Part shown: one piece after another, positions 2,521-37,667 of the stretch | Position numbering within the stretch: the first letter of the stretch is position 1 | Layout of the letters: each line of letters starts with the position of its first letter | Assembly (NCBI GenBank): GCA_026120185.1 | Contig: JANUWF010003380.1 | Coordinates: 379,501 to 443,500, forward strand | Length of the DNA: 64,000 nt | Origin: Voacanga thouarsii | Taxonomy: Eukaryota > Streptophyta > Magnoliopsida > Gentianales > Apocynaceae | Direction: 5' to 3' | Notes under the pieces: generated by a model | What the model was told of the DNA's origin: nothing | The model's database searches: none | Seen by the model: the letters and a program-made list of their open reading frames with translations, nothing else | Translations under genes and position numbers: made by a program

Positions 2521-4382
2521 TTCTCTCTCTCCTCTTATTTTTACCTGTTTATCTCTCTCTGTTTTTTTATAATTACATTATCAATAATTATAAGAATATA
2601 AATATACAATTAAATTTTAGAATTTTAAAAAGATTAAAATAATATTTAACTTATATATAAAAATAGACGTAATCCATATTTACTCCGAATTTACTAACAT
2701 TGCATTTGGAATAAATTTTATATATAATGTCTTTTTCCCTTGGGTACCCGATTTTTATAAAATATTAGGTAAATTAATACCATTATTGGAGACTTTTTTC
2801 TAGCAAAATTCAACAATTACGTTTATATTAATAATTAATTTTTAAAATAACATATCTTTCTTTAAAATATTTATAATAATTTATTTGATTCAGAGAGATA
2901 TCTATTAATTTAGAGGGTCTGTATTATTAATTTTGCTAATTAATAAAAAATAATGTGATTAAGGGTTTAAAATGAAACATTCCGCTGCAAACCGGGGTAA
3001 CTTTTTAAAGCAGTAAAAACAGAAAGAGAAGGGGTTCATATTTTTTTAGCTTGTGGTTGTGGAAAGAAGACAACCGCCACAGCAATCGCAGTCTATAGAG
3101 AAAAACAACACACACACACACACGTTACGAGGAAGCAAACCAGACTGCCTCCTAACGCCATGGCCCAGCACTCCAGCTCCACACATTGCATGCCAGAGCT
3201 TCCAAGTACGTGGAACCAATTCCAGAACCAAAGAGGGGCCTAAACACATTCTTACTATTATCCATTTCTATTTTTTTTTTTCTTTTCCTCGTTTTGAGAT
3301 CGAATAAATTTGTGTTTTTTAATGAATTCAATGGATGTTCAGAGAACGTTTCCCTCGAGTCGACAACGAGAGGCACACGCAAAATTAAAAAAAAAAAAAA
3401 AGTGTGTGCCTAACTGATGGTGATCTTTTTGATAAATTTACGCTGCGAATCAATATTTAAAAGTTTAAATTCTATTATTATCTGTCTTCTTAATTAAAAT
3501 CATATCAAATTTGACTAAAGTAAGGCACACATTCAGACATCTGAATTATTAAAAAGGAAAAAAAAAAGTGCTTGTTACTACCTACCACTTTGTTAAACAC
3601 ACACTCCAGCATTAATAAATGCAAACAGGCTGCGTCAACCAAAGCCTCTGCGCCTACAGTTCCTTTCGTGTCTCTCCATTCCCTAGAACCCCTTCCCCTT
3701 GTTCCAGATCCTGCCATTCTTCCTGCCCCTCAATTTTCCATTCTCTCCCTTTAGTAACTAGTTGACGATTTGTAGTCATGCCATGTGTTCACTCTAGTAG
3801 GATCGATATGGAGTGGGATTTGATCCGATTCTTATTTAACCGGAAATGGGCTCATTCTTGACTCTCCCTCCCCTACATGGTCGGTTGCTGTCTCTGTCAC
3901 CGGCGGGACCAAAGCAGAAAACAGCAGCCGTGATTAGCATTCTCACCTTTCTTACCTTCATCTCCCCAGATTTCATCTTTGCCAGTTGCCACCACAAAAC
4001 AAGCCAGAACTTGACCCTCTCTCTTTGCGCCCCCCCATAAGACACTTCTATTCGGGTCTAATTGGCTCCCCCCTGACTGGGGAAAAGGGAAATCTAAATC
4101 TGCCAGGACTAGTACAATGTATACTATCCAATTACCAATAACCTAGGTCACTTCTTTGAAGCAGACTGTTCTTCAAGTGAGTTCTAGTGTCGATGCACAA
4201 CATCTTTTCCAAATCTCCATCTCCTTAATTCCTTGTATGCCTGTTGAAAACTAGATTCAAAAGTAAAAATTTCATCTCAAGCAAATTATCTCCAGTTGAA
4301 ATAGCAACTTGATTCTTTTGTACAATACACCACCTTACAATGGACTAACATGGTGGTAACAAAACTAAAGGACTCTTGGAGA
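2521..4382. other. Intergenic stretch, no gene seen
   Basis: 2521-3000 is very AT-rich. 3050-4080 is more mixed and contains a CA microsatellite near 3110-3122 and homopyrimidine-rich patches. Short open frames overlap one another on both strands without splice context or recognisable protein features, so none is called. 4090-4382 is probably the 3' UTR of the shikimate kinase-like gene. Confidence 0.5.
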
Positions 4383-15589: not shown

Positions 15590-16790
15590 TTTTTATCTTG
15601 TTTTGCTACTTTGAGTATCCCAATATCTTTCCCTCAATTATTCTATTCCTGGCTGTGGGCAATCGGTGAATTTTCTTTTTCGAAATATTGGATATTGTGA
15701 TAGAAAAGGGATTTTTTCGTCTCAAAATTGGACTAATATTCATTACTTAAAACTTAAACTTAAAGGGGTTCTTTCGGTCATTCATCGAAAGGGGACAGTT
15801 GTTTCGAATTTGCCCAATTGAGATATTGGGAAACTCTATTTTTTTAGTATTTCTTCATTCGAAATGGATTATTAGTCGATTTTTCGAGTCTTTCGAGATT
15901 CAAAGACTAACCACAAAATCACAAATAAAATAGATTCATAGGTTCCATACCTTGTATAGAACTCATGCGTGAAAGAAACATAGAGTCGACGAATGAGGTG
16001 GGTTGATTAACAATTCACAGATGAAAAAATGACAAAAAAGAAAGCATTTACTCCTCTTGTATCTATAGTATTTTTGCCTTGGTGGCTTTCTCTCTCATTT
16101 AAAAAAAGTCTGGAATCTTGGGTTACTAATTGGTGGAATGCTGGGCAATCCGAAATTTTTTTGAATGATATTCAAGAAAGGGGTATTCTAGAAAAATTTA
16201 TAGACTTAGAGGAACTCCTCGCCTTGGACGAAATGATCGAAGAATACTCGGAGACACGTCTACATAAGCTTCGTATAGGAATCCAAAAAGAAACGATCCA
16301 ATTAATCAAGATACACAACGAGGATCGTATCCATACGATTCTTCACTTATCAATAAATATACTCTGTTTTGTTATTTTAAGTGGCTATTCTATTTTGAGT
16401 AATGAAGAACTTGTTATTCTTAACTCTTGGGCCCAAGAATTCCTATATAACCTAAGCGACACAGTCAAAGCTTTTTCTATTCTTTTATTAACCGATTTAT
16501 GTATTGGATTCCATTCACCCCACGACTGGGAATTAATGATTGGCTCTGTCTACAAAGATTTTGGATTTGTTCAGAATGATCAAATTATATCAGGTCTTGT
16601 TTCTACCTTTCCAGTAATTCTTGATACAGTTTTTAAATATTGAATTTTCCGTTATTTAAATCGTGTATCTTCGTCACTTGTAGTTATTTATTATTCAATG
16701 AATGATTGATAAAAGATCTACTCATATTAATCTAATCCAATTAGAAGGTTTGTTACTTTTTAGTTGTACATAAACAAAGCGTTGAAAATT
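15590..16790 (+). other. Nuclear plastid DNA insertion (NUPT): ycf4-cemA spacer, cemA and downstream spacer
   Basis: The sequence changes abruptly from AT-repeat to an evenly composed stretch that reads as the plastid ycf4-cemA spacer, the whole cemA frame, and part of the cemA-petA spacer. Gene order and spacing are as in the chloroplast large single-copy region. Boundaries are approximate (within about 20 bp left, 30 bp right). Its very high similarity to a working plastid gene suggests a recent transfer. Confidence 0.85.
16029..16709 (+). pseudogene. cemA: cemA (ycf10), nuclear copy of plastid inner-envelope protein gene, nonsense-interrupted
   Basis: The frame begins MTKKKAFTP and encodes the CemA body, including [17 protein letters not shown] and [18 protein letters not shown]. 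In the chloroplast this is a multi-pass inner-envelope protein linked to proton flux and inorganic carbon uptake. The frame stays open for 204 codons. It then meets TGA at 16641-16643, where plastid cemA has TGG (Trp) after FKY. Beyond it the remaining 21 codons (IFRYLNRV to SMND) stay in frame to the natural stop at 16707-16709. It has a plastid-type context with no nuclear promoter or added transit peptide, so expression as a protein is not expected. It is called a pseudogene because of location and the premature stop. Confidence 0.92.
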
Positions 16791-29914: not shown

Positions 29915-30281
29915 TGTTATGAATTATTGGAATCTCCATTAATTAGTGGAGGTTCCACTAATTATGAATTTATGTGAATTATTAGAAGATTTTTATGGAT
30001 GTCCACCATTTAGTGGAGACACCACTAATTGAGATTAGTTGAAGATGATGTATGCCATGATGTATTCCACTAATTAGAGCTCTATAAATAGAGCTATGCT
30101 CTAAGCTTGTAATACACCATCATTTTGTGGAAGAAAGATTAGTGAAAGAAAGATTAGAGAAAGAATTGTGAGAGAAAGAAAGAGAGAAGTTTGAAGAGAA
30201 ATTCTTGTGCAAAGAATAGTTAGAATTTTCTTAGTGTGTAGTGTGTAGATTTTATTCTAACACTACCCTAATTTTATAACA
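29915..30281 (+). mobile_element. Ty1/copia 5' LTR
   Basis: 367 bp bounded by TGTTAT and ATAACA, a 6-bp inverted terminal pair. It contains a TATA-like TATAAATAGAGC at about 30083 and a GA-rich leader (30120-30215). It is followed directly by CGTTATCAGCACGAG, the primer-binding-type sequence seen after LTRs of plant copia elements. Repeated motifs ATTAGTGGAGGTTCC and GGAGACACCACTAATTG recur in the degraded 3' LTR copies. Confidence 0.85.
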
Positions 30282-30296
30282 CGTTATCAGCACGAG

Positions 30297-30905
30297 TCTC
30301 TGTCGTTATTAAAGCCAGAAGACAGGTACGCATTTATTGATCTCGCTAAATTCGAAATTGTAGCCCTTGATATTTCTAAAAAAAAAAATTTATATGTCAT
30401 ACAGAAATGCATCTAAATGCTAAAAAAATGAGATCCATATGTCATGTGGATAAAAAGAAAAATTTGACCACCTGAAGATGGTCGTACTACCCACTGCACG
30501 GTATGAATGGTTGCACATGAAGTTGCAAGATTGTAAAACCGTGAACTCCATGATGTATAAAACTACATCTTAGTTAAAAATTTTACGGAGAAAAAGTTAC
30601 TGATGAAGTTATATTGGAGAAGACATTCTCCACTTTTCATGTCCTACAGTAACAATATCGAGAAAAAGGGTATCCAAAATTGACAGCTTTAACATGAGTT
30701 ATTATTGAGAAATCATGAAGCCAGATGAACTGGCTCAACAGCACTCCCAGAAGTGAATGCTGTTGGCTCCAGCAGAAGCCATCGTTATAGTCGTAGTTGT
30801 GGCAGTGGTCGTGGTTATGGTCATGGACACACTCGATATTTCCCTTATCACAGAGAAATACTGACCACCTGAAGTGGAACAGAAAAGATAATAAGGGAAA
30901 AAGAT
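30297..30905 (+). pseudogene. copia gag remnant
   Basis: Frameshifted and stop-interrupted fragments resemble plant copia Gag: an IVALDISKKNY-type N-terminal segment at 30345, VILEKTFSTFHV at about 30610, and a Gly/Arg-rich SRSRGSGRGRGYGHG region at about 30790. The last lies just before where the zinc knuckle would stand. The homology stops near 30900, where the DNA changes to the 3' side of the RKD gene. Confidence 0.7.
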
Positions 30906-31117
30906 ATTTCCATTAATAATAAGCATCATATCTTTTATTCATATCACTAGTGTTCATATGAACTTGAGGATACATGCTTATAGTTGTTCTTTTGTAATTG
31001 AGCTGACAAATATAAGATGAAGGTTTGTAATTGTTCTTTTTCAATATTTACATTAGAGGAAGATAAACAATTAGTAATTATGGACTTCAGCTCCTCTTTT
31101 TCGATATCCTCCTCCTT

Positions 31118-32346
31118 TTATTTCCCCTTTGAGCCAGCATCGAGACTAGCAGCAGAATTAGCCGTAAAATTACTGCGAAATGAGTCTTGAAATTTTATGA
31201 TCTTCTTAAGTTTATTATAATTAAATTTCTTATTATATTTGGCCTTGAAGCATGCTTGTCTCAATTTCTGTGTTTGGTCCTGTAACTGCGTATTAGGACT
31301 TTCTTCCACCAACTGTTTTTCACATTCCAGTATCGCAATGGCTTCTTTCAACTTCTTCTCAGCCATATGTCCTCCTTCTTCTTTATTTTGCATCTCCTGT
31401 AAATCGAAGTGATATTATCGGTTATTTACTTATAAATCTTTCATAGTTTCATACTTGCAAATTATAAGTATGTATGAGAGAGAACCTGAACATTCTTGAT
31501 TATGGTCTCCAAGCTCACCAATTTCATGTGAGGCCATCGACGAATTCCTAACTCCCTACATCTTTTCTTGAGACGGGTTATGCCAATATTCAGTTCTTTG
31601 GCTGCGCTCTTGATTGGTAGGTAAAAGTACTGCGAAATTGTTTCTCTTGATAGTGTATGGGAGTTATTGCACTTCTTCTCTCTCTGTCTCTTAATCATCT
31701 TCTTCTCCCCAGGAATTTTGTCTGCAATAATATCTTGAACTTCGATATTATGCATTTCATGAGTACTTACTCTGACTTCGTTGCCAAGACCACTCATTAT
31801 TTCTCCTAGAAAAAGAAAATAATATCAGTAAAGGTAATACCATTCAAAATCCATGTTTAAATGTATAATAACCTGAAAACATATTCTGGCTTTGTTCAAA
31901 ATCCATTAGAGAGTAGAAAGGATCATGCACAAGCATATCCTCATTCAAAGGAATAGTATCAAGAGGAATAATATCAAAAGCAGTCTCTTGTAGGGGCAGA
32001 TCAACTTGGTCCAAAGCAGTATGTTCAAAACTTCCACTGATTTACATAAAAAACAAACTAAAAGAGAGTTTAATTTCATTATCAAGTATACTAAAAACAA
32101 ATGAAAGCCCTCAAAGGTATCTCACCTGAAATTAGGAGGAAGCGGTTGGTTTGGAAAGGAAAATATATCAAAATCTTCTGCGTTCGAATTAGGCAGAAGC
32201 GGTTGGTTTGGAAAGGAAAACATATCAAAATCTTCTGCGTTCGAATTAGGCAGAAGCGGTTGATTTGGAAAGAAAAATACATCAACATCTGCTGCAGAAA
32301 CCGAGTCAAAATTTGACCATGTCTCAAATGAATTACGAGTCTCCAT
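31118..32346 (-). CDS. RKD-type RWP-RK transcription factor
   Basis: Four exons (32346-32126, 32036-31873, 31805-31486, 31396-31118) join in frame to 327 aa with GT-AG borders. Residues 181-235 form an RWP-RK domain: SRETISQYFYLPIKSAAKEL, GITRLKKRCRELGIRRWP, then SLETIIKNVQ. There is no PB1 domain and the length fits the short RKD subfamily rather than NIN-like proteins. RKD factors act in the nucleus in egg-cell identity and, in some plants, asexual embryo formation. Residues 20-75 hold 2.5 copies of a 19-residue repeat (FPNQPLLPNSNAEDFD core). Residues 236-270 are Glu/Lys-rich and may form a coiled coil. The core motif reads RWPHMK (218-223) rather than RWPxRK. The gene lies antisense inside a copia element, with only about 260 bp between its ATG and the element's integrase remnant. 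Introns argue against a processed retrocopy; the frame is intact. Confidence 0.88.
32140..32316 (-). repeat. 57-bp coding minisatellite in RKD exon 1
   Basis: A 57-bp unit repeats about 2.5 times. On the plus strand each unit contains GCAGAAGCGGTTGGTTTGG and CTTCTGCGTTCGAATTAG. It keeps frame and encodes an acidic 19-residue unit with Pro/Asn/Asp and Phe. Copies differ by very few bases, pointing to recent expansion or homogenisation. Confidence 0.9.
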
Positions 32347-32403
32347 ATCTGCTTTGTGATTTTTATTTTTGATGTTTACTAATGACTGATAACTGAGATA
32401 TAT

Positions 32404-32441
<38 letters not shown>

Positions 32442-32611
32442 ATATGAGGAAGAAGAAGAGGTAGATGATAGGTAGAGGGTCGGAGGAGAAGAAAAGACAA
32501 GAGAGGAAGAGGAAAAGTCGGTACCGGGAAGAGTGAAAAAAAAAAGAGATATTTTTCTTGGCATTTTCTGCTTGTCATCATTTTCTTATATTTCTTTTCT
32601 TATTCTCTTGT
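32347..32611 (-). promoter_or_regulatory. Short upstream region of the RKD gene
   Basis: This is the whole space between the RKD start and the copia integrase remnant. It has a TA repeat at 32409-32439 (about 65 bp upstream of the ATG, possibly leader or TATA region). On the minus strand a pyrimidine-rich block (CTTCCTCTTCTTC type, 32440-32520) follows, then an A/T-rich end. A complete native promoter may not have survived, so copia DNA may contribute. Confidence 0.45.
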
Positions 32612-34715
32612 GAAATCATTATTCCCTAAATTAGAGGGAGAACAGAAACAGTACAAGAAAGATCGTGATTGGACAACATCATTAAATTATCTTGATCCGC
32701 ATACAAGCGCGTGTGAACTTGAAGTTCAAAAGATAATTCATTTGTAAAGCATTGCAAATCAAATGTCAGATGCTTTTGTTGACTCTAGAAGAGTAACAAA
32801 ATCGCATATACCAGCTATAAATGCTCCTATTCTAATTGAAGTTCCAATAGAACAAAAGATTTTACATATAGCTGCTGAGCCAAAAGCATGCCAGAAGCAT
32901 GGCCGACCTCTTGGTTCTAAAGATAAAAATCCTCGAAAGAAGAGAGGATTAATGGTCCAAATGATCATATTAAAGCAAAGAATGATAAAGACCAAGAGAA
33001 AACTTATGACAAAGAACCAGACATAAATGAACGTAACACTGAAATTTCTATCCATTATACCACTTCCGATAGAAGTTGGAATCAGATAGAAACAATTATT
33101 GATCATATGTTTGCATATAATATCTCTTGATATTATACAGGATAGTGATGATCCTGAACCAATATCAGTTGATGAATGTCGGCATAGAAAAGATTGGCTG
33201 CAATGGAAAGATGCGATTCAATCGGAGTTAAATGCACTGACACAACGTGAAGTCTTCAGACCTGCAGTCCGAACACCAGAAGGTGTAAAACCTGTTGGCT
33301 ACAAATGGATATTTGTGCGAAAGCGCAATGAAAAGAGTGAAATCGTTCGGTATAAACCGCGATTAGTAGCCCAAGGTTTTTCACAAAGACCAAGTATTGA
33401 TTATGATAAAACTTATTCTCCTATTGTTGATGCTATTACACTCCGATATCTTATCAGTTTGGCAGTACATGAAAAAATAGATATGCGCTTATTAGATGTT
33501 GTCACTGCTTACTTGTATGGAAATTTAGAAAATGATGTTTACATGAAAATCCCCGAAGGATTTCATATGCCTGAAGCATATAAACATTATCCTCGTGAAA
33601 ATTACTCCATCGAGTTACAGAAATCATTACATGGCCTGAAGCTATCTGGGCGCATGTGGTTCAATTATCTTAGTGAATATTGATTGAAAGCGAGATTTAA
33701 AATGACCAGGTATGTCCATGCATTTTTATTAAGAAATCTGGTTCTAAATTTGTGATATTAGCTATATATGTTGATGATATTAATCTTATTGGAACTCTTG
33801 AAGAGCCCCAAGAAACAATTGATTATTCGACATCAAGGATGGTCGTAAAAGTATACTTTGCCTTGGTTTACAAATTGAACATTTGGCAAGTAGAACATTT
33901 ATTCAACATATACAACAAAAGTTCTAAAAAGATTTGACATGGACAAAGCACATCCATTGAGTATTCCAATGATCGTCCGATCATTAAATGTGGATAAAGA
34001 TCCTTTCAGACCTCAAGAAAATGATGAAGAACTCCTTGGTCCTGAAGTACCATATCTCAGTGCAATTGGTGCATTGATGTATCTTGCTAATAATACACGA
34101 CTCGATATTGCTTTTCTTGTCAATTTATTAGCAAGATTTAGTTCTTCACCAACACGACGACATTGGAATGGAATTAAACAAGTCATTCGATATCTCCAAG
34201 GTACAATTGATCTCGGATTATTTTATTCAAATAAAACCAGTCCAACATTGATAGGTTATGCAGATGCTGATTATTTATCTGATCCACATAAAGCACGTTC
34301 TCAAACGGGCTATCTATTTACATGTGGAAATACTGCTATATCATGGCGTTCTACGAAACAATCTATAGCACATACTTCTTCAAATCATGCTGAAATTATA
34401 GTCATTCATGAAGTAAGTCGAGAATGTGTATGGATAAGATCCATGATTCATTATATCTGAGAAAGTTGTGGATTATCATCAATCAAAGATATTCCAACTC
34501 CTCTTTATGAAGATAATGCAGCTTGCATAACTCAATTACGAGGAGGATATATTAAAGGGGATCGGACAAAACATATTTCACCAAAATTCTTCTTTACTCA
34601 TGAACTCCAGATGAAAGAAAGGTGAAATTGATGTGCTACAAATTCGGTCATGTGATAACCTCGCAGATATTTTCACAAAGACTTTACCGACTGCTAACAT
34701 TTGAGAAGTTGAGAT
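32612..34715 (+). pseudogene. copia integrase tail, reverse transcriptase and RNase H remnants
   Basis: Pieces in order: the integrase C-terminal region (ACELEVQKIIHL, then a TAA at 32745, then KSHIPAINAP and HGRPLGSKDKNPRK); reverse transcriptase from about 33160 (WKDAIQSELNAL, YKWIFVRKRN, LVAQGFSQRPSIDYDKTYSP, LLDVVTAYLYG), interrupted by TGA at 33681; the YVDD catalytic box at about 33765; and the RNase H domain (GYADADYLSDPHKARSQTGY, with HAEIIV) to 34460, then DNLADIFTKTLP. Several frameshifts and stops separate these blocks, so no polyprotein can be made. Confidence 0.88.
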
Positions 34716-34852
34716 ATAAAATCGGTATGCGTCGGTTTAAAGATTTAAAGGAATCATCTCATCAGGGGGAGTAATAAACAGACATATAGAATAGTGTACT
34801 CTTTTTCTTTCACTAGATTTTTTTTCCCACTGAATTTTTATCTAGTAAGGTT

Positions 34853-35310
34853 TTAACGAGACATATTCTTTATGTATGGATGGACATCCAAGGGGGAGTG
34901 TTATGAATTATTGTAATCTCCATTAATTAGTAGAGGTTCCACTAATTATGAATATTTTTTTTCCCAACGAGCCATATTCTTTATGTATGGATGGACATCC
35001 AAGGGGGGGTGTTATGAATTATTGTAATCTCCATTAATTAGTAGAGGTTCCACTAATTATGAATTTATGTGAAGGAGACACCACTAATTGAGATTAGTTG
35101 AAGATGAATTATTGTAATCTCCATTAGTATGAGGCATATTCTTTATGTATGGATGGACATCCAAGGGGGAGTGTTATGAATTATTGTAATCTCCATTAAT
35201 TAGTAGAGTTTCCACTAATTATGAATTTATGTGAAGGAGACACCACTAATTAAGATTAGTTGAAGATGAATTATTGTAATCTCCATTAGTATTGGAAGAA
35301 TATCGTAATA
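34853..35310 (+). repeat. Three tandem polypurine-tract/LTR-start units
   Basis: The motif ATTCTTTATGTATGGATGG, then a CCAAGGGGG tract, then TGTTATGAATTATTGTAATC occurs three times, with LTR starts at 34899, 35010 and 35172. Units differ in how much LTR follows. The last two include a GTGAAGGAGACACCACTAATT stretch where internal LTR sequence has been deleted in the same way. No copy reaches an LTR end. Confidence 0.85.
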
Positions 35311-35358: not shown

Positions 35359-37667
35359 TTATTGTATCAACTCCGGGATTAGCTTTAGCAAAAATGACAA
35401 TTCCCTCTGAGAAAATTGAGGTTTGGTTGACGACGCAATTTGTTCCTCCCCTTCCACCACCGTCTCCTCCGATGGCCTCATCAAATTTGAGACAGCCTCT
35501 GTAATTTCTTTAACTAAATCAACGATTACACCTTCCACGCCCATCAATTGTTGCATGTACACTGCCTCCGCCACATTACTGCAACATTTAACAAAGATCC
35601 CAGCATCAGTATCCCTGAATGCTTCCTCAAAACGAAACCAACAAGATAAAAATACTCACTTCAATTTGCCATATGTTAGAAGAGAAAGCTTTGCCTCTTT
35701 GATTTTGTTTACTGCCCCTGGATTTCTAAAGATGCCTCTCACTTCAGAAACTATCCCTTGCAAATCACCTTCCAAGCACACCTTGATGGCCTCCTCCAGG
35801 GAGTTCCTCCTCACATCGTAGTAAATATCGTTGCCACCATTTGTAAGGAAAAAGACCTGCAGTTTGGTTCCACAAGGAGCACCGTCCACACCTCAATAAA
35901 GCAAGTACATGCACAGACATCAAACTATTGAGCAAGATGGGAGCTGGAACTTACAGGATAGCGGCTCTGCAGTTTCCTCACGAGAAGAGCAGCATCGGGT
36001 AGGAAAGAAGAAAACACAATGGGCCTGTCCCCGGCAAATTCAAACACCACCCGCAAGATGGATTGAAGAACATTGACGAGACATTCTTCTCGATAAACGA
36101 TGTGATCGTCGAACTTTAATTCGATGTTGAAACCCAAAGAAGGGCGGACTTTCTGGAATGCTTCTTGTAGAGTACACGTAGATTCATCAGTTTCTACGCT
36201 CCAGCTAACTATCTTGCCGTCTTTTGTTTTCCTTAATAATGATTTTCCCACTTTCCCATCTTCCCTCTGGGGACCATAGCTAAGGAATTCAGCCAAAGTC
36301 AATTCTGTTACTCTCCTCTCATAAACCATTCCCTGAAAAAAATAACAAATCCAAGATGAGACCCAAATGTTGAAAACAATCAAGACTAAGATCCCAAAAT
36401 GGAAAAACTGAAGAAGAAAGAGATTACATGTTCTTCCGAGAAGATGAAGTTGTCGTGGAAAATGATAGGGCAGCCATCTCTTGTGACCTACAAAAATCAC
36501 ATCCATCTTTTTTTCACTTTTCCGTCTAATGCTCTCGTATCCAAGTACAATAGTAGTACTTTCCAAGTAAGAGGGAGCAACAACTATACAGATAAAATCC
36601 GAAAAGAAGAAGGAAAAAAGAAAAGAAGAAGAAAAAGACTCATCAGTAACCCTCTTAGCAGGAAATCCGTCATGAACGGCGGAAACACAATTCTAAAGTA
36701 AATTGATCAATACTGGATTTGCATATACCATGCCGCACTAATTCGATATCAAGAACAAATTTCCATTTTTAAATTTTCTTTCTTTAAAAGAAATATTGCA
36801 GTCCTCAAACTAAAAAACTCCTCATCGCCGGGGCACAATCCCCCCCCCCCCCCCCCTCCCTCTCTCTCTCTATGGAGAAGGATCGCAGGTTTCAGGTGAG
36901 CTAGCATTTCTCCGGATCAATCCGGCCCTTTTTTGTTTTTTCTGTATTTGTTGGAAAGAAGATTTTTAAAATCCCCGAATTTTACAAAACCTTAATTGGG
37001 CAGATAAGTAATTACTCCTCTGATCAGAAGAAAAACCGACGGAATATTTACTCTACTACTCGAAACCGAGGACAAGACTAGTAAAGTGGGGGTAAAAATA
37101 TAACGCGACGCATGCGGAGAGGGAATAACACACAGACAGCGTCACGTGTCTCAAGTTCAAAACAAAACACCGCCGCGAGCAATTTTCCGGACAAAAGACG
37201 CCGGCAACGAAGAAGAAAGTATATATATATATATTATACTCTAAATACAAAAGAAGTTATGTTATAGAGAAATCGCAACAAGTACCTGAACGTCAAATTC
37301 GACATAATCGACGGGGTACTTGGCTGCAGTATTGAATGAGAGAATGGAATTCTCTTTAATTGCCTTCATTCTCCGATCCGGCGATTGCAATAGATTCATT
37401 CCACTCCCTCTGTGTCCGATCACGAGAAATTTGGGTGCCTTAAACACCGCTTTCCCAACTTCGACACCTAAAAAAAACCCATATTGTACGGGAGCTAAGC
37501 GAACCGTCGCCACCGACAGAGATACAAATGACAAAAATCAAAGAAAAAGAAAATAATAATAAAAAAAAACCTGTGGCGAAGCGCGAGGAATAGAGAGCCA
37601 GGGAAGCGGTTTCCGGGATATGGTCGAGACTGGGGACGTCAGAGACATGAACGGCCTTGAGAGCCAT
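35359..37667 (-). CDS. Glycerophosphodiester phosphodiesterase (GDPD1-3 type)
   Basis: Six exons (37667-37571, 37467-37286, 36487-36428, 36332-35955, 35856-35660, 35578-35359) join to 377 aa. The protein hydrolyses glycerophosphodiesters to glycerol-3-phosphate plus an alcohol, linking phospholipid turnover to phosphate recovery. The GDPD domain runs from about residue 46 to 340. FLVIGHRGSG supplies His51 and Arg52, KENSILSFN supplies Glu71, VEFDVQ supplies Glu89/Asp91, and IIFHDNF supplies His104: all catalytic or metal positions are kept. Length is close to plant GDPD1-3 (about 360-380 aa). The N-terminus before the domain is short and not clearly a transit peptide. MALKAVHVSD at 37667 is the natural start. 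The 3' UTR must run into or end beside the copia LTR units that begin 50 bp past the stop. Confidence 0.92.
36840..36857. repeat. Poly-C tract followed by CT repeat inside GDPD intron 2
   Basis: About 17 consecutive C on the plus strand (poly-G on the transcribed sense of GDPD), then CCCTCTCTCTCTC. On the minus strand this is G-rich RNA. It lies in the longest GDPD intron. Tract length is likely polymorphic or error-prone. Confidence 0.85.

Follow-up and report, generated by a model that had tools for sequence, protein, structure and literature searches.

Host genes inside plant LTR retrotransposons

In plant LTR elements, transduced genes are described as usually lying in sense orientation and in one or few copies (PMC7264820), and none of the segments captured by maize Bs1 is reported to have a full-length frame (PMC13317346). 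The antisense additional open reading frames of Grande (gene23), RIRE2 and Retand are described as lying between pol and the 3' LTR, without clear protein similarity and of unknown origin (PMC7264820). Extra domains have been reported as well, such as the AlkB domain of orchid Gypsy elements, and a screen of 121 angiosperm genomes, filtered for a minimum of five consensus sequences in each species, is reported to have recovered 15 such domains, every one of them in Gypsy elements and not one in Copia (PMC9289625); the term "RWP" is absent from the main text of that screen. In pearl millet, RWP-RK genes have been described that lie within intact LTR elements or overlap them (PMC10011142), and a MITE insertion has been described for Citrus CitRKD1 (PMC6090715).

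The window analyzed here, a stretch of 64,000 nucleotides from Voacanga thouarsii, contains a copia element with an RKD gene in antisense orientation. We class this arrangement with the host genes captured by non-autonomous LTR retrotransposons. Very probably, the window holds one damaged member of a non-autonomous Ty1/copia subfamily that is present in high copy number and carries a nearly complete antisense host RKD, captured once. As in maize Bs1 and tomato Rider/SUN, sequence of a host gene is carried within an LTR element and copied along with it; unlike those cases as described, the gene is antisense, nearly complete, retains its three introns and is present in many copies (12 of 15 copies chosen by their reverse transcriptase, RT), in contrast to the usual sense orientation and low copy number. 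With maize Grande gene23, rice RIRE2 and Silene Retand it shares an antisense coding unit that recurs across many copies and may have a promoter of its own. However, compared with the published descriptions, which place such frames after pol and ahead of the 3' LTR, the unit here sits inside pol, before RT, and derives from a recognizable host gene. Pearl millet offers an RWP-RK expansion tied to LTR elements, a likeness by description only, as orientation and a shared copia capture are not given in that account. The orchid AlkB case is also a host-type domain fixed in an LTR family, although in Gypsy there and copia here. Citrus CitRKD1 again links RKD with a mobile element, but as reported the element lies at a host gene there, whereas here the gene lies in the element.

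Structure of the window copy and its RKD gene

The window copy of the element is damaged, with an incomplete 3' LTR (Table 1). The earlier note had read a copia LTR and gag up to about 30900, resuming at about 32612, with protease and integrase core missing. This layout was borne out by the Pfam RT match and by alignment with an RKD-free relative (L022/L029), which is 80% identical, contains frame breaks and aligns on both outer sides of the junctions at ~30904 and 32595-32614. Between the junctions, the window lacks the protease and the integrase core, and the relative keeps both, plus a zinc knuckle. In the relative, gag_pre-integrs (E 1.4e-5) and rve (E 3.1e-7) fell slightly short of the curated Pfam cut-offs; the zinc knuckle and protease motif were recognized by eye, and the zinc-knuckle piece gave no Pfam match. 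Its order of protease motif (by eye), then pre-integrase, integrase and RT (Pfam), is the copia PR-IN-RT order. Since both halves of the window element align with this same relative, and RT is near-identical in copies with and without RKD, the reading of a single element is supported and an origin of the halves in two different copia families, a check raised earlier, is rejected.

Table 1. Features of the copia element and its RKD gene in the window
Feature	Position	Strand	Basis or remark
5' LTR, TGTTAT...ATAACA, 367 bp	29915..30281	+	Repeat-family analysis; LTRs of fetched copies match over 1-367
Palindrome-like LTR boxes, ATTAGTGGAGNTTCCACTAATT type, at 29922, 29942 and 30009	29922..30030	+	Also in 3' LTR remnants
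Decayed gag remnant, ending at left junction	30300..30904	+	Alignment with RKD-free relative L022
Captured segment holding the RKD gene	30905..32594	-	In the relative, this place is taken by zinc knuckle, protease, pre-integrase and integrase core
Remainder of RKD C-terminal tail, beyond the window's stop	30947..31117	-	Sibling-copy comparison
RKD exon 4, up to the window's stop codon (31118-31120)	31118..31396	-	Premature relative to five sibling copies
RKD exon 3, RWP-RK DNA-binding domain	31486..31805	-	Gene model, Pfam; repeated in genome
RKD exon 2	31873..32036	-	Gene model
RKD exon 1, ATG at 32346, 57-bp tandem repeats 32130-32295	32126..32346	-	Gene model; repeat analysis
Captured DNA 5' of RKD start codon, AT microsatellite 32398-32445	32347..32594	-	
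Integrase C-terminal remnant, past right junction	32614..32750	+	Alignment with RKD-free relative
Reverse transcriptase segment, then stop and frame break	33090..33680	+	Pfam RVT_2 (PF07727), E 1.2e-33
RT end and RNase H region, split into three reading frames	33894..34774	+	By-eye similarity to frames of relative L029
Damaged 3' LTR: first 55 bp (34899-34953), then tandem fragments to about 35292	34899..35292	+	Repeat analysis

A Pfam search of 33894-34457, in the RT end and RNase H region, returned no match, and neither did Rfam and tRNA scans. The ATTAGTGGAGNTTCCACTAATT-type boxes number 14 in the window against 0 expected by shuffles (both strands, up to three mismatches), and those in the LTR are possible transcription-factor sites.

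The RKD frame of the window encodes 327 amino acids in four exons, antisense to the element, with introns of 89, 67 and 89 bp that are all GT-AG and an RWP-RK domain (Pfam PF02042, E 9.9e-21, 73.8 bits against a cut-off of 29.3). The gene had been called intact, which overstates its condition: relative to five sibling copies, whose frames reach 365 to 384 amino acids, the window's stop removes 55 to 57 residues. The C-terminal acidic tail, a feature of the RKD subfamily, is absent in the window copy, and a look-alike tail was recognized by eye in the five siblings. Upstream of the start codon, all 20 of the long copies fetched have the stretch 32450-32594, and the captured DNA there may hold the RKD promoter and 5' untranslated region.

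The ten best database matches to the RKD protein are 44 to 52% identical, several of them named RKD1 or RKD2. Among 5.8 billion proteins no near-identical one was found, the best-scoring match having 52% identity across 71% of the query, and a PDB sequence search gave no match. A tree of 46 proteins, built without an outgroup of other RWP-RK proteins, placed the protein as sister to Catharanthus RKD (support 99/97). This position, together with the Apocynaceae host, suggests that the donor was probably an RKD gene of the host lineage. No clear single-copy native RKD locus was seen among the matches listed (126 and 123 candidates scored); no listed RWP-RK exon match exceeded 71% to Olea or 72% to Catharanthus, and some exon-4 pieces reached 73 to 75%. 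A link to apomixis, proposed earlier by way of fruit trees, is unsupported: the host is, by its plastid cemA insert, an Apocynaceae, close to Tabernaemontana, and none of the results bear on apomixis.

A mobile family with and without RKD

Other copia copies carrying RKD, a check proposed in the earlier note, were found. A 29-mer from RKD exon 3 (RWP-RK) occurs at 2381 sites in the 1.35-Gb genome (reversed control, 0), a figure that cannot be taken as the number of copia-borne copies alone, as it includes probable members of a second RKD family, of which 4 of 8 match the 29-mer within two mismatches. At least 40 RKD matches at 98 to 100% identity were scored, on many contigs. In all 20 long copies fetched, which were selected through exon-3 similarity, copia DNA flanks RKD on both sides and both junction 29-mers are present within two mismatches. 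The identity of the junctions, another of the proposed checks, points to one capture event behind all 20. Of the 20 copies, 18 are LTR pairs bounded by 5-bp target-site duplications, perfect in 16 and with a single mismatch in 2; the other two copies are composite or mis-paired. In the 18 copies with target-site duplications the LTR pairs diverge by 0 to 0.039 (median, 0.0124), two pairs being mismatch-free. Thus, the arrangement is a recently active mobile family, of which the window gene is one member.

Among the copies chosen by RT, 15 of 39 were read at the RKD position; 12 contain RKD exon 3 and 3 an open pre-integrase frame, and RT is 96 to 98% identical to the window in both groups. In the three RKD-free sisters (491-bp pieces read), RT is 96 to 97% identical and the pre-integrase frames match Pfam gag_pre-integrs at E 6e-11 to 9e-10. 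A 29-mer from the RKD-free stretch occurs at 3229 genomic sites (control, 0). These sisters are likely to act as helpers in trans for the RKD-bearing copies.

Capture of the gene by the element, one of the routes named earlier, is favored over a gene that was hit by an insertion, since shared junctions and target-site duplications show the RKD segment to be mobile together with the element. The three retained introns rule out a processed copy, as had been stated; however, they do not prove capture at the DNA level. Because the gene is antisense, splicing of the element's genomic RNA would leave its introns in place, so they would survive an RNA passage too, and template switching onto unspliced antisense RNA could also have kept them.

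Overall, we propose that a single capture replaced the zinc knuckle, protease and integrase core with RKD, changing the element's length little, and that the captured gene was then copied along with the element. The 5' LTR would drive a genomic RNA in which RKD reads backwards, allowing its introns to escape splicing, and the RKD-free sisters, with protease, integrase and an almost identical RT, would provide the missing proteins in trans. RKD itself would be mostly passenger cargo; some copies keep the whole frame, but it is gone from the majority of those read.

Possible selection on the RKD frame and possible roles of the captured gene

Whole RKD frames of 365 to 384 amino acids are present in 5 of the 20 fetched long copies. 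Changes common to at least 4 of 40 copies are 17 nonsynonymous to 13 synonymous against an expected 2.7:1 (p 0.042, uncorrected), a synonymous lean that is at odds with a pure passenger. For exon 3 in the RT-chosen sample the counts are 23:18 against 2.25:1 (p 0.053, uncorrected). Private changes are 17:13 in 7 open-frame copies (the 5 with whole frames and 2 open over the fetched length) versus 64:21 in the other 32 (p 0.065 by Fisher's test, uncorrected), and dN/dS among the 7 copies and the window is 0.36. For the other classes, the ratio of nonsynonymous to synonymous changes is 0.87 of the neutral expectation for single-copy changes, 0.93 for those in two or three copies, 0.72 (p 0.12) for those in two or more, and 0.97 for all exon-2 changes. 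Introns have changed less (16 changes in 1583 bases) than exon 3 in the RT-chosen sample (58 changes in 12 copies of ~318 coding bases each), AT-rich introns being expected to mutate less under the inferred mutation spectrum. Stops in exon 3 are not depleted in this sample (4 distinct). Exon-3 diversity in the first 20 copies is low (median pairwise 0.0125 versus 0.028 to 0.053 in seven other regions), which is not counted as evidence of selection because those copies were picked by exon-3 similarity. With best p values of 0.04 to 0.07 among several classes examined without correction, the data weakly suggest selection on the RKD frame inside the element.

Such selection would be expected if RKD served the element. 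With the captured promoter driving RKD in the egg or early embryo, the protein would trans-activate the LTRs of the family, so that germline copies are inherited and broken copies use the protein of intact ones. The whole frames, the synonymous lean of the shared and exon-3 changes, the contrast in private changes, the dN/dS value and the palindrome-like LTR boxes are in keeping with this proposal. However, the remaining change classes are near neutral (likewise uncorrected), introns have changed less than exon 3, stops are not depleted, the protein database holds no near-identical protein, and the very young copy L026, whose LTR pair has no mismatch, has a broken RKD frame. We regard this explanation as doubtful, and it seems rather unlikely that the family carries its own germline transcription factor, with RKD from intact copies activating LTRs in egg cells and embryos and helping to drive amplification. 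The antisense RKD might instead act as RNA, either pairing with the genomic RNA to tune silencing or serving as camouflage, since any small RNAs directed at it would also target the host RKD gene. For plant LTR elements, antisense transcription and effects of siRNAs have been discussed (PMC7264820), as has donor-gene conflict for captured genes (PMC13317346), but this mechanism predicts no synonymous bias, and we hold it to be improbable.

Two further explanations were considered. RKD may have been mobile before it met copia, with a second dispersed family as the source through recombination or insertion into the element. Eight loci (L049-L056) have RKD related to the copia-borne gene in shared repeated DNA with none of this copia; introns 1 and 2 are apparently kept. 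They lack intron 3, however, which the copia-borne RKD has, so they could have been the direct source only if this intron persists in some members, and no unit termini were found at the loci examined; a prior mobile stage has accordingly a small chance in our estimate. The window viewed alone is compatible with copia DNA disrupting or flanking one host RKD locus, with consequences confined to that gene. This reading has next to no chance in view of the many contigs and 29-mer sites, and it is refuted by the dispersed near-identical copies with shared junctions and target-site duplications.

The very probable reading remains that of a once-captured RKD spread by a copia subfamily. A high-copy copia family has acquired a recognizable host gene as an antisense gene of its own, and this offers a datable and testable case for the antisense extra genes described as being of unknown origin. 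Because RKD is a reproductive regulator, its many copies could affect the host, through dosage or small RNAs, or the element, through germline expression. Where annotations show an expanded RKD family, the additional genes may be transposon cargo.

The window element and its neighbourhood

The RKD gene of the window copy lies in the opposite direction to copia and consists of four exons and three GT-AG introns, with a frame of 327 aa in which Pfam finds a clear RWP-RK domain. When the element was aligned with an RKD-free relative, homology ended at about 30904 and restarted between 32595 and 32614, placing the junctions proposed by the earlier note (30900 and 32610) within about 20 bases. Between these positions, the relative carries a zinc knuckle and a protease motif, both recognized by eye, followed by pre-integrase and integrase domains (Pfam, 1.4e-5 and 3.1e-7, both slightly below the curated cut-offs). 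Its SH3_retrovirus domain is over the Pfam cut-off, and its zinc-knuckle piece gave no match in a Pfam search. The protease (by eye) and integrase core (by Pfam) are therefore what the window element lacks at that stretch, as the earlier note had held.

The GDPD frames start about 70 bp past the 3' remnants of the element, so the window copy sits just beyond the 3' end of GDPD. Elsewhere in the window, a plastid cemA copy is 98% identical to that of Tabernaemontana and 97% to that of Ambelania (matched over 16029-16640), and is probably a recent plastid insertion. This similarity places the host in Apocynaceae, in or close to the tribe of Tabernaemontana.

Features of the window and related loci (window positions unless a contig is named)
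Feature	Position	Strand	Remarks
Ty1/copia element	29915-35292		order: 5' LTR, gag, RKD, integrase tail, RT, RNase H region
5' LTR			367 bp, then decayed gag
RT			Pfam RVT_2 match, downstream of integrase tail, upstream of RNase H region
57-bp tandem repeat	32130-32295		RKD exon 1; 19 residues per unit; unit number differs among copies
GDPD (glycerophosphodiester phosphodiesterase) gene frames	35362-37537	minus	Pfam match in 35928-36692, rest by eye
Plastid cemA copy	16011-16640		in nuclear contig; open frame of 210 codons
Tandem array of RKD-gene piece	G000:C198:1601247-1604357		six exact exon-3 29-mers on one strand, spaced 616-617 bp
Second RKD family, eight loci examined (L049-L056)	G000 contigs C958, C817, C784, C956, C730, C759, C940, C694

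Dispersal of the RKD-bearing copia family

Transposable elements are reported to make up 75.16% of the Voacanga thouarsii genome, and the 968.6-Mb genome of a relative is described in the same paper as the second largest known in Apocynaceae (PMC10963385). The assembly searched here comprises 1.3457 Gb in 1848 contigs. With exon 3 as the query, the best 40 of 1758 first-look candidates matched at 98-100%, the window among them. An exon-3 29-mer was found at 2381 genomic sites with at most two mismatches (control, 0); four of the eight members of a second RKD family match it too, and the sites need not all be copia-borne. Besides the window, 39 exon-3 places were taken, 20 as 9.9-kb stretches (long copies) and 19 as 1.46-kb gene stretches. 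The earlier note had suggested looking for other copia copies carrying RKD and comparing their junctions: in all 20 long copies the gene is flanked by copia DNA on either side, and the left and right junction 29-mers, the left with just 5 bases on the copia side, each fit 20 of 20 within two mismatches. These common junctions point to one capture by which RKD would have entered copia.

The description of the RKD gene as intact was not upheld. The window frame ends early, at a stop at 31118-31120, whereas in 5 of the 20 long copies it reads through to 365-384 aa and ends in a tail resembling other RKD C-termini by eye. Among the 19 shorter stretches, two (L031 and L046) are open over their whole fetched length. 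Only 55 bp of the window's 3' LTR are left, plus tandem fragments, and the window copy is therefore damaged in gene and element alike.

The family is recently moved. Target-site duplications of 5 bp are perfect in 16 long copies and carry one mismatch in 2, the remaining two (L016 and L018) being composite or having wrongly paired LTRs. LTR-pair divergence in the 18 copies is K 0-0.039 (median 0.0124; two pairs without mismatch), which gives insertion ages between 0 and 1.5 million years with a median near 0.5 million, at a rate of 1.3e-8 borrowed from a pearl millet study (PMC10011142).

When a piece of RT served as the query, a choice that does not depend on RKD, the best 40 of 2876 first-look candidates matched at 96-100%. 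RKD exon 3 was at the expected place in 12 of the 15 RT-chosen copies read (of 39 besides the window); the other three (L068, L069 and L070) have 161-163 codons of open frame in place of RKD, in which Pfam finds a pre-integrase domain (E 6e-11 to 9e-10), and their RT is nearly identical to that of RKD-bearing copies. A 29-mer of this RKD-free stretch has 3229 genomic sites (control, 0), and such sisters are thus numerous. The RKD-bearing copies are without protease and integrase core, and the RKD-free sisters are putative helpers that would move them.

Origin of the captured gene

The earlier note rightly reported that the introns are kept, and reasoned from this to an event at the DNA level. 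That second step does not necessarily follow. Because RKD is antisense, its splice sites would be reversed in LTR-driven RNA and its introns should survive reverse transcription unchanged; kept introns are therefore no proof of a DNA-level first capture.

In a tree of 46 proteins, seven copia-borne RKDs group together (100/100) with Catharanthus RKD as their sister (99/97); the branches are long. The donor likely came from the host lineage. The ancestral locus envisaged by the earlier note did not emerge: no clear native RKD gene was present among the matches listed for the Olea and Catharanthus RKD queries (126 + 123 candidates scored), the best RWP-RK exon reaching 71% and 72%, respectively. 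The best Olea matches were at least 58 loci with a single match crossing the exon 3/exon 4 border. The eight examined lack intron 3 and apparently keep introns 1 and 2 wherever readable; up to about 2.5 kb of repeated DNA around RKD is common to them. Most top matches of this second family contain stops. Neither half of the window copia had a match in the DNA examined around these loci; different copia-like frames lie about 1.5 kb from RKD in L056.

No report of RKD captured by a copia element was present among the literature matches listed, at the level of titles and abstracts, and sections 4, 8 and 12 of a 2026 gene-capture review do not mention it (PMC13317346). Closest among those matches is an LTR-associated RWP-RK expansion described in the pearl millet paper (PMC10011142). 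As far as the consulted portions go, a screen of 121 angiosperm genomes with a five-consensus filter reported extra domains in Gypsy elements only (PMC9289625); according to a review, LTR elements usually carry transduced genes in sense and in few copies, and no known protein is similar to their antisense extra ORFs (PMC7264820).

Possible selection on RKD inside the element

Evidence for selection on RKD inside the element is mixed. After exclusion of the repeat zone in exon 1 and of bases close to gaps, single-copy changes in 40 copies (83 N : 35 S) are near neutral, at 0.87 of expectation, and those in 2-3 copies are at 0.93. Changes in at least two copies are at 0.72 (p 0.12) and those in at least four at 0.48 (17 N : 13 S, p 0.042), both uncorrected with several classes examined. 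By exon, all changes stand at 0.97 in exon 2 and 0.64 in exon 4. In exon 3 of the RT-chosen sample, 23 N and 18 S changes and 4 stops were counted (synonymous excess, p 0.053), and private changes are 17:13 in open-frame copies versus 64:21 in the others (Fisher p 0.065), again uncorrected over several classes.

Counting against selection, the RT-chosen copies show less change in their introns than in exon 3; because introns are AT-rich, a lower rate is expected of them. Stop codons in the RKD frame are not rare, and the frame is broken in L026, whose LTR pair shows no mismatch. An early frameshift ending in ...ARC at residue 21 looks the same in 7 of 40 copies (L012, L018, L026, L035, L042, L045 and L048). 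One of these is the very young L026, and it seems that a lineage with a broken RKD was copied also. Median dN/dS is 0.36 for the set of open-frame copia copies and the window, 0.40 for the second family, and 0.53 when the two sets are compared, with neutrality near 0.66 by our own estimate from the mutation spectrum. The reading preferred here is that RKD is cargo that may once have been used.
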